Of a stretch of 64,000 nucleotides of DNA, positions 12,055 to 17,812 are shown piece after piece. Each line of letters starts with the position of its first letter. Positions within the stretch are counted from its first letter, which is position 1. The stretch spans positions 1 to 64,000 of the forward strand of contig CAIYOD010000167.1 of the NCBI GenBank assembly GCA_903927755.1, given 5' to 3'. The translations under genes and the position numbers were made by a program. The DNA comes from an uncultured Thermoleophilia bacterium. Lineage in GTDB: Bacteria; Actinomycetota; Thermoleophilia; UBA2241. The notes beneath the pieces are model-generated. The model saw nothing but the letters and a program-made list of their open reading frames with translations. It did not search any database and was not told the DNA's origin.

Positions 12055-12117
12055 ACGTCTAGCCTGCCCGCCGCGTGTCTGAGGCGCAAGCGCATCGTCG
12101 ACCGGCCGACGCCCGTC

Positions 12118-12146
12118 TTGCCCTCGCCTCCGCCCGCACGGACAAT
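12118..12146 (+). promoter_or_regulatory. Possible promoter of the mttB operon
   Basis: TTGCCC at 12118-12123 and GACAAT at 12141-12146 are 17 bp apart, 36 bases before the ATG at 12183. Both hexamers are imperfect. Confidence 0.35.
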
Positions 12147-12182
12147 GGAGCCCGGCATCATGGTCCAGTCCTGGAGGAAGCC

Positions 12183-12893
12183 ATGCCATCACCCCGGGCG
12201 CTCGCCGCCCTTCTCGTCCTGCTCGTCGCGCTCGGCGCCGGCGCGGCGGTGTGTCCCCCGACCGCCGGCGCCACCACGCGCGACGAGCTCATGAAGACGA
12301 GCCTGGTCGCCCTGCAGGGCGCCATCGAGAAGGACGCTGCCGCTCGCATGTTCGTCTACGCTCATCCCAAGTCGGTCTCTCCGTCGGGCGGCCTCGCCAT
12401 CGCCTTCTGGCCGCGCGATCCGTGGACCGGCAGACGTCTCATGCCGGGCGCCACGCAGGGTCACTACAGGTACGTCCGCGCCCACGACTACCGCAGCTAC
12501 GAGCTCATCGGCTACCTCAGCGGCGGACGGACGTTTGTCGTCAAGGGCCGCATGGCGCACACACCGACGCTGGCCTACGACCACCGCGGCGAGGAGGGGC
12601 TGAACCTCATCTTCCAGTACGTGAAGACGTGGTCGCGGGCCCACGATGGGCGGCTCCCCACGGCGGCGATGGTGTCACGCGACGGCGCGGTGGGCCGGCA
12701 GGGCGGCGACCTCCTCTGGCCGAGCAACCCGTGGGATCACAGACCGATGATGCAGCGCGACGATCCAGGCTCCTTCGCCTACGCGCGCTCCACAGACGGC
12801 AAGACGTTCACCCTGAACCTTCATCAGGCCCTCAGCGAGGACTACATCCTGCAGGGCACGGCAGCCAAAACGACCGCGGGAGACCGACTTTGA
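12183..12893 (+). CDS. Secreted two-repeat NPWTG-domain protein, coupled to mttB
   Basis: 236 residues with a signal peptide (about residues 1-30, ALAALLVLLVALGAGAAV) and two copies of a roughly 90-residue domain: a helix (DELMKTSLVALQGAIEKDAA), a loop, then a WPRDPWTGRRLMPG or WPSNPWDHRPMMQRD block leading into G-[HS]-[YF]-x-Y and a beta strand pair (SYELIGYLSGG). The pattern resembles the head of type II secretion pseudopilins (GspG, 'DPWG' and 'PG' blocks) but the N-terminal methylation signature is absent. Its stop overlaps the TTG start of mttB (TTGA), so a secreted protein and a cytoplasmic methyltransferase are coupled. Closest relative in the window is the three-repeat protein at 15241-16272. 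Function unknown. Confidence 0.78.
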   Translation: MPSPRALAALLVLLVALGAGAAVCPPTAGATTRDELMKTSLVALQGAIEKDAAARMFVYAHPKSVSPSGGLAIAFWPRDPWTGRRLMPGATQGHYRYVRAHDYRSYELIGYLSGGRTFVVKGRMAHTPTLAYDHRGEEGLNLIFQYVKTWSRAHDGRLPTAAMVSRDGAVGRQGGDLLWPSNPWDHRPMMQRDDPGSFAYARSTDGKTFTLNLHQALSEDYILQGTAAKTTAGDRL

Positions 12894-14359
12894 AGCGGAA
12901 CCTGTTCGCCGGCCGTCGCCGAAGCGGCGGCCTCAAGTTAGACGTCTTCACCGAAGACGAGATCCAGGACATCCATCTGTCCACGCTCGAGGTGCTCGAG
13001 CGCACGGGCGTGTGGGTGGAGCTCGACGAGGCGCTCGACATCTACAGCGACGGCGGCTGCGTCGTCGACCGGGAGTCGCACATCGTGCGCATCCCGCCGC
13101 ACATCGTCGAGGACGCCATCGCCAGCGCGCCGCCGACCGTGGTGCTCTGCGGCCGCGACCCGAAGAACGACATCTGCCTCGAGCCCGGGCGTGTCGGCTT
13201 CAGCAACTTCGGCGAGGGCATCAAGGTGATCGACCCGCGCACCGGCGAGCTGAGGGCCTCGACGAAGAAGGACCTCGGGGAGATCGCCCGGCTCGTGGAC
13301 GCGCTGGACGAGGTCGACGTGTTCGAGATGGCCGTCGTCTCCAGCGACCAGCCGCCGGAGTCGTTCTCGCTGCACAACCACGAGGCGGCCATCGTCAATC
13401 AGACGAAGCCGATCTCGGGCGGCGCCCAGGACGGCGACGCCGTCCACCGCACGGTGGACATGCTCGCCGCCGTCCAGGGCGGCAAGGATGCCGTGCGCGA
13501 GCGTCCCATGATGGTCATGGGCACCTGTCCCGTGAGCCCGCTGAAGCTCGTCAAGGACTTCTGCGAGATCGTCATCCAGTCGGCGCGCGTCGGCCTGCCG
13601 AGCTGCGTGCTCAGCATGGCGATGGCCGGCGGCTCGAGCCCCGTCACCCTCGCCGGCACGCTGGTCACCCACAATGCCGAGGTGCTCGCCGGGATCACGC
13701 TCGGCCAGCTCACGGTGCGTGGCAGCAAGCAGCTCTACGGCTCGTCGACGACGGCCATGGACCTGCGGCTCGTCGCCGCCTCGGTCGGCACGCCCGAGTG
13801 CGCGCTGATCAGCGCCGGCGCGGCGCAGCTCGCCAGGCAGTACCGCCTGCCGAGCTACATCGCCGGTGCGTAGGGGGACAGCAAGCTCAGTGACGTGCAG
13901 ACCGGTCACGAGAAGACCCTCACGGCCCTCATGGCAGCGTTGGCAGGGACCAACCTGATCTACGGCCTGGGAATGATCGAGTCAGGCGTCACGTTCGATT
14001 ACGCGCAGCTGGTCATCGACAACGAGATCGCGCGCATGGTCAAGCACGTCGTCGGCGGCGTGCGCGTCGACGACGAGTCTCTGGCGGTGGACGACATCGC
14101 CTCCGTCGGCTCGTTCGGCGACTTCCTCAGCCTGGATGCGACGATGCGCCACATGCGCGACACGTCACAGCCGGAGCTCATCGACCGTCGCGTGCGCGAG
14201 GACTGGGAGGCACGCGGCTCCAGCGACATGTACCAGCGCGCGATGGAGAAAGCGCGTGGCCTCCTCGAGACACACCGGCCCGAGCCGTTGCCGGACGACG
14301 TGCTGAAGCAGGTGCGGAGCATCGTCGACAAGGCGGACCGGGAGCGCGCCGCGAACTGA
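12890..14359 (+). CDS. mttB: Trimethylamine methyltransferase with in-frame UAG (pyrrolysine)
   Basis: One gene of 490 codons if TAG at 13871-13873 is read as an amino acid (residue 328). The N-terminus KRNLFAGRRRSGGLKLDVFT and EIQDIHLSTLEVLERTGVWV is the standard MttB opening. The text continues without frame change through the TAG: PSYIAGA, then the amber, then GDSKLSDVQTGHEKTLTALM, the conserved segment around pyrrolysine in trimethylamine:corrinoid methyltransferases. The reaction moves a methyl from trimethylamine to a Co(I) corrinoid protein. Start is the TTG at 12890, overlapping the previous stop, with GGGAG upstream. A single read-through product of 489 residues is expected; the usual length is about 490-500. 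No corrinoid protein gene is adjacent. A nonsense mutation is unlikely because mtbB at 16.4 kb shows the same thing at its own diagnostic position. Confidence 0.93.
13871..13873 (+). other. Amber codon read as pyrrolysine in mttB
   Basis: TAG in frame, codon 328 of mttB. Coding text is conserved on both sides. In the trimethylamine methyltransferase of methanogens the Pyl residue lies near position 334. Confidence 0.88.
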
Positions 14360-14521: not shown

Positions 14522-15220
14522 TCAGCCCGGCGTCGCGGTGAGCCTGCTGATGAGTAGTGGCGTGAGGGGAGTAGGACTCCACCCGGTCGTGAGCATCACC
14601 CTGAGGGAGTAGGAGGCGCCGCCGACCGTGTAGCGGAAGCAGCCGGGCGTGTCGCCGGCGGCCATGTCGGCGCCTGTCCACGGGTTCTTCGGCCACGTGT
14701 AGCCGCTGAATGCGGCGGTCGGCGTCACGTCGGCCGCCGCCGGATACGTGCCGCCGTGCGCGGCCGCATACGCCTCGACGTACCGCTGCAGCAGGAGCAA
14801 GTCCTGCATGGAGGCCGTGTTCCGCTCCGTCTTCAGCCAAGGCGGCAGGGTCCCGCTGAAGGCGTACTTGCCGCTTGAGAGGTGCATGGTCAAGGTGTAG
14901 GCGGTGCCGCTGTTGCGGAGCGTGTAGGTGTAGGTGCCGCGCGAGGTGCCCGGCCCCATGAGCTTGCCGGTCCATGGATTCGACGGCCAGATGCGCGTCT
15001 TGTCCTCGAGCCCGCCGCCCTTCTTCACTGCGGCCTTGTCGGGGAACGTGAAGCCGTGCTTCATGCCGTAGGCGTTGATGTAGTTCTGGATCAGCAGGCC
15101 GCCGGCCTGCACCTGCTTGTCGACGAAGCCGACCGCCTCCGCCGGCCGTGGCGCGGCCGCGGCGAGGAGGAGGGCGAGTGCGGTCGTCGCCAGGACGACG
15201 GCGAGCATGCGTTTGATCAT
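14522..15220 (-). CDS. Secreted two-repeat NPWTG-domain protein
   Basis: 232 residues with a signal peptide (MLAVVLATTALALLLAAAA, cleavage near A-E-A). Two copies of the domain follow: repeat 1 has IWPSNPWTGKLMGPG and GTYTYTLRNSG, and repeat 2 has YTWPKNPWTGADMAAG and CFRYTVGGASYSLRV. Each copy begins with a helix of the type LLIQNYINAYGMKHG or LLLLQRYVEAYAAAHG followed by a Y/F-P. ATG at 15220 follows a GGAGG site. It is 20 bp downstream of the three-repeat protein at 15241-16272 on the same strand, so the two are probably one operon. Function unknown. Confidence 0.78.
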   Translation of the reverse strand: MIKRMLAVVLATTALALLLAAAAPRPAEAVGFVDKQVQAGGLLIQNYINAYGMKHGFTFPDKAAVKKGGGLEDKTRIWPSNPWTGKLMGPGTSRGTYTYTLRNSGTAYTLTMHLSSGKYAFSGTLPPWLKTERNTASMQDLLLLQRYVEAYAAAHGGTYPAAADVTPTAAFSGYTWPKNPWTGADMAAGDTPGCFRYTVGGASYSLRVMLTTGWSPTPLTPLLISRLTATPG

Positions 15221-15240
15221 GAGGAGGCCTCCCTTGGTGG

Positions 15241-16272
15241 TCACGGCTCCGGCGTGCCGGAGCTGCGCGCCGGCGCCGCCGGCGACGGCGCGAGGCCGCC
15301 GGCCTGGAAGTCGCCGGAGTGGAGATGGACGGTGAGCGTGTAGGCGCCGGCGGCGCCGGGTGAGTACGTGTAGGCGCCCGGGCCGGTGCCGGGCTGCATC
15401 TTGGCGCCGCTGGTCGGGTCCTGCGGCCAATCCGCGTGCGCCTCTCCGACCGCGGCGGCCGGCGCCATCTCCGCGATGGTCGGCAGCGTCCCGGCGTGTT
15501 GCAGGGAGTACTGGCCCACGTAGGCGGCGAGGATCTTGCCGCTGCGGCGCAGGATCTCGTCCTCCAGGCTGGTCAGCAGCTGCTGCCACGGGCTGGTGAC
15601 GGTCGTCCCGGTGAGCACGTAGTCGTTCTTGAGGGCGCGGTGCAGACGCAGCGTGAACGACTGCCGGTCGGCCGCGACCTCGTAGGAGAAGGAGCCGTGG
15701 TCGGCTCGCTGGGTCATGTTCGCGTGATCCCACGGATTGCTCGGCCAGTAGCGATGCTGGGGCTCCAGGCCCACGGCGCCGTCGGAGTCCACGTCGGCAG
15801 GCAGGGGATAGACCCCTTCGTGGCCGGCGGCATAGTCCTCTACGTACTGACGGATGAGGTTGATGCCCTCTTCGCTGCGGTGGTCGTAGGCGAGCATGAT
15901 GCTCTTGGGCATGCCGCCCGTGAGGACGACGACGCCGCCGTCCAGGTAGCCCACCAGCCGGTAGCGGCGGCGGTCGGCGCTGACGCGGTAGCGATAGTGG
16001 CCCCGGCCGACGCCGGGGGTCATGCGTGCACCGGTCCATGGGTCAGAGGGCCACCAGGAGGAGCTGCCGAGGTGGCCGGCGCGGACCTTGGTGGCGACGG
16101 GATAGGAGAAGTACCTGGCCGCGCCCTCACGGTCGATGAGCCCGCGGATGGCCATGAGGGCGTCGCGCATCTGCGTAGTGGGGGAGGCGGCGCGGGCCGG
16201 CGCGGCAGCGCCCGCGCCCAGACAGGCCGCCGTGAGCAGCACGGCGCAGAGGATGAGAGTGCGTCGGATCAT
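15241..16272 (-). CDS. Secreted three-repeat NPWTG-domain protein
   Basis: 343 residues, signal peptide at about 1-32 (TLILCAVLLTAACLGAGA). Three copies of the domain: WWPSDPWTGARMTPG with GHYRYRV, YWPSNPWDHANMTQRAD with GSFSYEV, and the diverged DWPQDPTSGAKMQPGTG with GAYTYSPG. The first two repeats align closely with the two repeats of the protein at 12183-12893 (shared YDHR-SEEG/GEEG and PSNPWDH), so one arose from the other and the third copy was added or lost. It runs divergently from mtbB. The 154-bp gap carries mtbB's likely promoter. It may be an exported, possibly surface-bound, protein; no enzymatic motif is visible. Confidence 0.78.
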   Translation of the reverse strand: MIRRTLILCAVLLTAACLGAGAAAPARAASPTTQMRDALMAIRGLIDREGAARYFSYPVATKVRAGHLGSSSWWPSDPWTGARMTPGVGRGHYRYRVSADRRRYRLVGYLDGGVVVLTGGMPKSIMLAYDHRSEEGINLIRQYVEDYAAGHEGVYPLPADVDSDGAVGLEPQHRYWPSNPWDHANMTQRADHGSFSYEVAADRQSFTLRLHRALKNDYVLTGTTVTSPWQQLLTSLEDEILRRSGKILAAYVGQYSLQHAGTLPTIAEMAPAAAVGEAHADWPQDPTSGAKMQPGTGPGAYTYSPGAAGAYTLTVHLHSGDFQAGGLAPSPAAPARSSGTPEP

Positions 16273-16426: not shown

Positions 16427-17812
16427 GTGGAAGCGAAGGTCCCGACCCGCATGGGGGACGGCTACATGGTCGAGATGACGCGCAGCGAGCTGCGCGCCGA
16501 TCTCGAGGATGCGACGCAGGCGGCGGCGGGCAAGGCCAAGGTCCCGCCACTCGCCCAGGAGGAGCTCGACCACCTCCTCGACATCTACGCCTCGCGCGCG
16601 GCCTTCACCTCCGTCGACATCGGCGACCAGGTGGTCCTCAGCTGCGACGGTGGCGGCAGCAAGATGACCGGCACCGACCTCCTCGACCTGCTCGAGAGCG
16701 AGCAGCGGCTGGGCCAGGACATCCTCGAGCTCTGGCACATCGAGTACAGCTACAAGGCGATCAAGACGATTCTGCCGTTCCAGCAGCAGGTGATGCAGAA
16801 CTGCCAGTTGATGATGACGGCCCCGGTGCAGTACGGCGCCCAGCCCAATCTGGCCTTCTACAGCAAGCCCGACGGGCCGGCGGACAACTGGTTCGAGCTG
16901 CTGCCGCGCGGGGACATCGCCGGCGCCCGCGCGGCGATCGCCGAGGCCATGGACCACGCCACCAAGGACTTCATCTACGTGGGCGAGGGCATGCTGGACG
17001 CCGGCGCCGACGGCATGGACTTCGACACCACGGGAGGCGCCGGCGACGCCGACTTCTTCAGCACCCTGCGGGCGGTGAAGCACCTCCGCGCGAAGTACCC
17101 GGACGCCGGCATCGAGGTCGGCATGGCCGGCGAGTTCGTGATCGGCGTGCACGGCGAGCTCGAGTGGGAGGGCCGGCGGCTCGCCGGGTTGTGGCCGAAG
17201 GAGCAGCTCGAGGTGTGTCAGGACGCCGGCGCCACCATCTTCGGGCCGGCGGTGAACATCCGCACCGGCAAGAGCTGCGCCTGGAACGCGGCGTACTCGA
17301 TCACGGTGTGCAAGCCGGCGATGGACGTCGCCCGCATCCCCGTGCACCCCAACGTGGGCGAGGGCGTCGGCGGCGTGCCGGTGAACGGGTACCCGCCCGA
17401 GGACGCGGCGTCCCGGGCGGCCAAGGCTCACGTCGACATCCTCCGGTGCGACGGGTTGTAGGTGGGCTCGGGTGACTCCAGAGGCATGGATGTCACCCAC
17501 GCGCTCGCCGCGGGCATGGGCGGGATGCGTACGGCCGGAGACCTGGTCGCGCGCATGCAGATGGCCCGCGGGATGCGCCTCGAGCCGGCGAAGCGGTACG
17601 TCGCCGGCAAGCTCGGCTGCACGGTCCGCGATCTCAGTGACAGCTACGCGATGGAGCAGATCCGCGGCGAGAAGGGCCTCGGGCGGATCCTCGACCACTC
17701 CAACCTGCACCCGGGCGAGCCGAACGCGATGATGGCCAAGTTCCGCATCGCCGAACTGCTCGGCGTGCCGATCAGGTCGGTGGAGCGCTTTCGGGAGCTG
17801 GCGGGGCTGTAG
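16427..17812 (+). CDS. mtbB: Dimethylamine methyltransferase with in-frame UAG (pyrrolysine)
   Basis: One gene of 462 codons with TAG at codon 345 (17459-17461). Before the amber: EAKVPTRMGDGYMVEMTRSE opening and a TIM-barrel body ending NVGEGVGGVPVNGYPPEDAA, HVDILRCDGL. After it, in the same frame: GSGDSRGMDVTHALAAGMGG and MRTAGDLVARMQMARGMR, continuing to the C-terminus. This is the order around pyrrolysine in dimethylamine:corrinoid methyltransferase MtbB (about 467 residues, Pyl near 356). The product methylates a corrinoid protein from dimethylamine. GTG at 16427 follows GAGGAG. The gene itself ends with a second TAG at 17810-17812, so the same codon is sense and stop within one gene. 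Its last 41 bp overlap the 3' end of an opposing membrane-protein gene. Confidence 0.93.
17459..17461 (+). other. Amber codon read as pyrrolysine in mtbB
   Basis: TAG in frame at codon 345; conserved MtbB text resumes immediately (VGSGDSRGM). Read-through is needed to make a full-length enzyme. Confidence 0.88.

Follow-up and report, generated by a model that had tools for sequence, protein, structure and literature searches.

Candidate nucleotide signals around UAG codons predicted to encode pyrrolysine in mttB and mtbB of a Thermoleophilia family

A gene for a trimethylamine methyltransferase that is interrupted by one TAG raises the question of whether this codon is read as pyrrolysine (Pyl) and, beyond this, how the cell distinguishes a sense UAG from its ordinary UAG stops. 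The latter is an old question: in a review from 2021 (PMC8211752), cis signals for Pyl are described as not found and the sparing of ordinary UAG stops as unexplained. We analysed such a locus in a window of 64,000 nucleotides (CAIYOD010000167.1, contig C167 of genome G000) from an uncultured Thermoleophilia bacterium, whose MAG comprises 3.54 Mb and is 86.9% complete, together with the remainder of this genome and its relatives. The features of the window are collected in Table 1.

Table 1. Positions of the methyltransferase genes, predicted sense UAG codons and candidate RNA features within the window.
Feature	Positions	Strand	Evidence or remark
mttB, trimethylamine--corrinoid methyltransferase	12890..14359	+	TIGR02369 701.8 bits; one in-frame TAG
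Sense UAG of mttB (predicted pyrrolysine 328)	13871..13873	+	opposite modified residue X of 7xcl_A
PYLIS_3 match	13871..13970	+	Rfam RF02510, 64.8 bits vs gathering 38
mttB downstream hairpin GTTGG-CAGGGA-CCAAC (candidate)	13939..13954	+	inside constrained motif GCG TTG GCA GG, codons +22 to +25
mtbB, dimethylamine--corrinoid methyltransferase	16427..17812	+	one in-frame TAG; PF09505 511 bits
-1 codon TTG (Leu) before mtbB sense UAG	17456..17458	+	TTG at 42/44 Leu sites, family mtbB
Sense UAG of mtbB (predicted pyrrolysine)	17459..17461	+	same column in 11/11 mtbB of genome
PYLIS_2 match	17459..17558	+	Rfam RF02509, 60.7 bits vs gathering 36
mtbB downstream hairpin, 11 pairs, AGAC loop	17527..17554	+	covariation; all 11 pairs form in window copy

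The initial annotation had described two mttB halves that share one frame and are split solely by the TAG, with IAGA before and GDSKLSDVQTGHEK after it, and this is how the sequence reads. When the frame, with TTG as predicted start, is read through its single TAG (codon 328), 489 residues are obtained: the joined protein is assigned to MTTB in Pfam and reaches 701.8 bits against the TIGR02369 equivalog of NCBIfam, for which the cut-off is 525. The solved MttB (PDB 7xcl/7xcm) aligns to it end to end over residues 2–484, with residue X of 7xcl_A falling on the TAG column, and this column is identical in all five TAG-bearing mttB genes of the genome. The window also holds a second UAG gene, mtbB, which the initial annotation had missed along with the RNA-level signals described below. 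Its product scores 391.2 bits against TIGR02368 (cut-off 369.1) and matches PF09505, the Dimeth_Pyl family; since its terminator is TAG as well as its internal predicted sense codon, UAG would have both meanings inside one gene. Across the genome we found approximately 36 full-length MttB-family genes, five of them with one TAG, and 11 mtbB genes, all with exactly one in-frame TAG. Each of these 16 TAGs is the sole in-frame stop of its gene and lies in the Pyl column of its family, and the in-frame stop is TAG in all 16 genes even though TGA makes up ~78% of ordinary stops. The TIGR02369 score, the alignment on residue X and the recurrence in 16 genes together indicate that the TAG of the window mttB is not there by chance. 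This gene is a new member of an already known enzyme kind: it shares the full-length match, the Pyl column and a score above the cut-off with Pyl-dependent MttB (TIGR02369; 7xcl/7xcm), and differs from the known enzyme in its GC-rich actinobacterial genome and in the mtbB that forms the second UAG gene of the window. No mttC was recognised beside the window copy of mttB. Around mttB and mtbB lie three secreted-looking proteins (12075–12893 on the forward strand, overlapping the mttB start by 4 bases; 14522–15244 and 15241–16272 on the reverse strand) that have a common repeated W(P)SNPWTG-type motif, and for which no Pfam match was obtained.

The machinery for Pyl is encoded on another contig of the same genome (C89), which carries pylSc, pylSn, tRNA-Pyl (anticodon CTA), pylD, pylC and pylB with a corrinoid protein gene among them; the nearest PDB structures to PylSc are 3dsq and 2zni. 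In common with the bacterial split pyl system to which these structures belong are the split synthetase, a tRNA-Pyl with CUA anticodon and pylB/C/D, here in one ~8 kb region, whilst the other family of the class that has pyl genes shows a compact pylT-pylSn-pylSc-pylB order and a separate PylSc lineage. The pyl region (L010:2712-10845) uses both strands and is interleaved with corrinoid, radical SAM, putative lipoprotein and nitroreductase-like genes; pylSc and pylD themselves terminate with TAG. Given that the pyl genes sit on a different contig and the MAG is 86.9% complete, they could have been binned in error, although pylSn is present in 13 further family genomes. With regard to partner proteins, the genome contains 19 TIGR02370 matches to corrinoid proteins, three of which are over the cut-off, and RamA-like/RACo-type reductive activases (PF14574, 339 bits). 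A further RACo-type activase match (L176; G000:C65:11799-12542) has one in-frame TGA. The sole MtmB-family gene of the genome (L178:3734-5095; G000:C39:10733-12094; PF05369, 223.7 bits) has no in-frame stop and is thus apparently a non-Pyl homologue.

Neither an absence of pyl genes nor a stop outside the Pyl column was found, and frame, column and pyl set all support the 489-residue enzyme that the initial annotation predicted to be made by UAG decoding. We are therefore highly confident, on the basis of sequence comparison, that the UAGs of both window genes are decoded as Pyl: pyrrolysine in their products is a prediction, with translation as Pyl very likely, and trimethylamine and dimethylamine are their putative substrates. 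In the mechanism that we propose, PylB, PylC and PylD would make Pyl, the split synthetase PylSc+PylSn would charge tRNA-Pyl(CUA) with it and the charged tRNA would compete with release factor 1 at UAG. Pyrrolysine at the in-frame UAG would then be the catalytic residue of MttB and MtbB as corrinoid-dependent methyltransferases, from which the methyl group would pass to partner corrinoid proteins with genes at other sites of the genome. UAG would stay an ordinary stop at ~20% of genes, and signals acting in cis on the mRNA at sense UAGs (a UUR or otherwise constrained upstream codon and a hairpin ~70–95 nt downstream) may favour Pyl insertion over termination.

The supposition of an actinobacterial genome was borne out by the nearest named relatives: the nearest named PylSc sequences come from Thermoleophilia and Actinomycetota MAGs, and Zod_maxbin.0406_1, JPNA_maxbin.076, palsa_647 and UBA6103 match members of the family row for row in searches. 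All 15 genomes of the family, which are Thermoleophilia-type MAGs, have both a UAG mttB and a UAG mtbB; pylSn was detected in 14 of them and, within the class, in five genomes from a second family, making 19 of the 399 genomes sampled. Of the family MttB proteins over the cut-off, 57 of 58 have one TAG, none has TGA or TAA and the exception has Val, whilst every full-length MtbB listed in the family has one TAG. In a PylSc tree of 43 rows, the Actinomycetota sequences of the group fall into a single supported clade, with the four rows of the other family in a clade of their own, which argues against one recent common source for the two families. In a genome of this other family, the pylSn match falls into two pieces that lie in different frames, as a frameshift would produce (L044, L045; G080:C1:102946-103187). 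Pyl decoding in such genomes had been called rarely described, which is fair, although it is not undescribed: the accessible text of PMC10805028 (2023) reports expression of mttB and mtbB with Pyl by Actinobacteriota MAGs from Stordalen Mire, and hence novelty at the level of the phylum is partly taken. These MAGs share phylum and gene types with the present genome, and the matching searches place palsa_647 in this family; what is given here for the present genome, and is not described in that text as far as it is accessible, are the pyl genes, the copy numbers and the nucleotide context.

How, then, is UAG used elsewhere in this genome? Among ~405 genes called with a simple gene caller over 513 kb, ordinary stops are TGA in 77.5%, TAG in 19.8% (80/405) and TAA in 2.7%, and the TAG share in class members without Pyl lies between 16 and 47%: no depletion of UAG is apparent among the ordinary stops of these genes. 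In-frame back-up stops in the next five codons occur after TAG (6/80) at no higher rate than after TGA (21/314). A scan of the same ~513 kb for further genes in which UAG is read returned other genes that end in TAG and are followed by coding-like sequence, which looks like neighbouring genes in frame. In three such genes (L187:10323-11723, reverse strand; L232:42-3116, forward strand; L192:2735-4210, reverse strand) a long in-frame coding-like sequence follows the TAG, which is probably an in-frame neighbouring gene.

The comparison of sense UAGs with ordinary UAG stops covered the -1 codon. At the sites of the family in which the -1 residue is Leu, TTG is used in 56 of 57 cases, compared to 4.3% of the 3,265 Leu codons that these genes contain, and none of the nine Leu codons before ordinary UAG stops in the genome is TTG. 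For mtbB, the -1 codons are TTG (42), TAC (7) and CTG (2) in this family, TTA in 16/16 sequences of the other family of the class and TTG (34), TTA (12) and CTG (2) in other phyla. In case of mttB, the UUR rule holds only where the -1 residue is Leu: the window copy has Ala (GCG) at this position and mttB of other phyla mostly has Gly. A pair scan found no partner base for the -1 wobble position. UUR in place of other Leu codons, in mtbB and Thermoleophilia mttB, could form the upstream part of a cis code, and we hold this part to be evenly balanced together with the code as a whole.

Downstream of the UAG, a codon-by-codon test over 732 mtbB columns ranked the +26 Gly (GGA in 47/47) and the -1 Leu at the top, and GGA also encodes this Gly in 114 of 115 mtbB sequences from several phyla. 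In a pair scan from -24 to +126 the leading pairs were 68-95, 74-89 and 71-92, all of them third codon positions on one diagonal, on which 77-86 also lies; two well-aligned upstream control stretches gave no diagonal with more than one third-position pair. The controls were confined to -330 to -30, as the regions from -600 to -300 and from +126 to +276 gave numerous scattered pairs, which is probably due to insertions and deletions that disrupt the ungapped frames. In 80 mtbB representatives the resulting 11-pair hairpin is paired in 90.8% of cells, and its covariation score of 0.300 compares to 0.112±0.010 for shuffled alignments (reached by 0/500) and to at most 0.113 when the structure is slid along the sequence. 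RNAalifold recovers the inner six pairs unaided, and Rfam PYLIS_2 draws the inner part as its second hairpin, which is thereby supported by covariation; the first hairpin of PYLIS_2 is paired about as often as column composition predicts and is unsupported in these sequences. As conservation, the mtbB nucleotide signal is strongly supported as real, and the third-position covariation of its hairpin extends over several phyla.

For mttB, codons +22 to +25 read GCG TTG GCA GG in most members of the family, with the +24 Ala being GCA in 35/35, and this stretch can fold as GTTGGC-AGGN-GCCAAC (GTTAGC-AGGC-GCTAAC in Desulfosporosinus-type sequences). Double-sided base changes occur in 13 cells versus 4.7 in shuffled alignments (0/500), the covariation score is modest (0.154 versus 0.124, reached by 10/500 shuffles) and RNAalifold returned no consensus structure for mttB. 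The association of the motif with UAG is clearer: amongst MttB genes of the Thermoleophilia class with Leu-Ala at +23/+24, TTR+GCA is used in 41/47 with TAG and 0/18 without, and outside the class in 23/32 with TAG and 1/9 without, where the sequences are related and probabilities from such simple counts are indicative rather than exact p-values. In genome G078, two adjacent genes read GCG TTG GCA GGT GCC AAC in the TAG copy and GCG CTC GCG GGG GCC AAC in the Val copy. This Val copy (L177:759-2159; G078:C191), which lies beside the TAG copy, belongs to the Pyl-MttB clade and is devoid of the downstream nucleotide motif. Over mttB codons +20 to +28 (L270, L267), class-mates from the other family and Desulfosporosinus are nearly identical across ~27 bases surrounding the hairpin despite the differing composition of their genomes. 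Thus, the mttB hairpin is less certain than that of mtbB, whilst the link of the mttB motif to UAG is strong.

In the window, Rfam matches are limited to PYLIS_3 at the sense UAG of mttB and PYLIS_2 at that of mtbB. Both genes score above gathering (RF02510 and RF02509), although the models contain neither the proposed mttB hairpin nor the -1 UUR rule. In 84 mttB sequences, all eight pairs of PYLIS_3 are about as frequent as column composition predicts, and since its pairs lack support from base changes, the PYLIS_3 match is largely one of sequence similarity. Archaeal sequences entered the comparison as Rfam consensus lines. An earlier study (PMC3639795, 2013), in a literature covered here mostly outside subscription journals, found no significant structure in mttB. 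Over the 99 nt that follow the UAG, folding energy is slightly low against synonymous sampling (mean z of -0.54 and -0.80), which is not decisive. A CsrA-type GGA site was considered for the loop and dropped, given that most of the loops in mttB read AGGC, AGGG or AGGT.

What these signals do can be viewed in several ways. Bacterial sense UAGs may carry a cis code, composed of a constrained -1 codon and a stem-loop with a loop starting A-G, that is lacking at ordinary UAGs and would raise Pyl insertion; we judge the case for this code to be finely poised. Two points favour the signals as promoting insertion: they go together with the UAG, and replacement of the PYLIS in mtmB is reported to have led to less full-length and more amber-truncated product (PMC2933860). 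The main alternative, which we regard as possible on a tentative basis, is that the downstream RNA element regulates the mRNA (stability, attenuation or protection of a ribosome-free stretch) and not Pyl insertion. The offsets of 68 to 95 lie beyond the mRNA covered by a ribosome at the UAG and would suit such a role, and it is precisely a halt at UAG that would call for regulation of this kind; in addition, other systems are reported to insert at UAG with no cis element (PMC8211752), and in earlier work, as cited in the accessible text of PMC8211752 and PMC2933860, no cis element was found to be required for Pyl insertion in the systems that had been examined. Against this stand the mtmB replacement and the lack of the signature in MttB paralogues that have identical residues but no Pyl, the tandem neighbour among them, which shows that the signature follows the UAG. 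Counting against a role in insertion, the hairpin at 68–95 nt downstream would be outside the ribosome with the UAG in the A site.

It is unlikely that competition alone suppresses UAG whenever tRNA-Pyl is expressed, with the conservation near UAG being inherited or codon-usage noise. Ordinary stops free of UAG depletion, and an Acetohalobium pyl system that is switched by growth condition (PMC11467909), would fit such a scheme, but noise of this type does not account for the TTG bias at -1 and its lack before ordinary UAG stops, for mtbB covariation above all 500 shuffles and every slid structure, or for the near-invariant +26 GGA across several phyla; relatedness among the sequences inflates simple probabilities here as well. 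A broken gene in which the TAG stems from a nonsense mutation or an error of sequencing, for which the in-frame stop is the sole argument, is highly improbable given that 16 genes of this genome and the family as a whole share the TAG column, that coding constraint persists past the TAG and that the pyl set is present.

The preferred reading, a cis code that raises Pyl insertion, offers candidates that are specific and testable: they comprise one codon and one hairpin, and defined base changes should break and restore the latter. Should the signals act in this way, the sequence itself would allow gene finders to separate the two kinds of UAG, and the element could be built into engineered Pyl systems to increase insertion at selected positions. 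The signals thus bear on how the cell distinguishes sense UAGs from ordinary UAG stops, whilst the large set of predicted Pyl methylamine enzymes in this actinobacterial family is relevant to the turnover of methylamines in anoxic soils and sediments.
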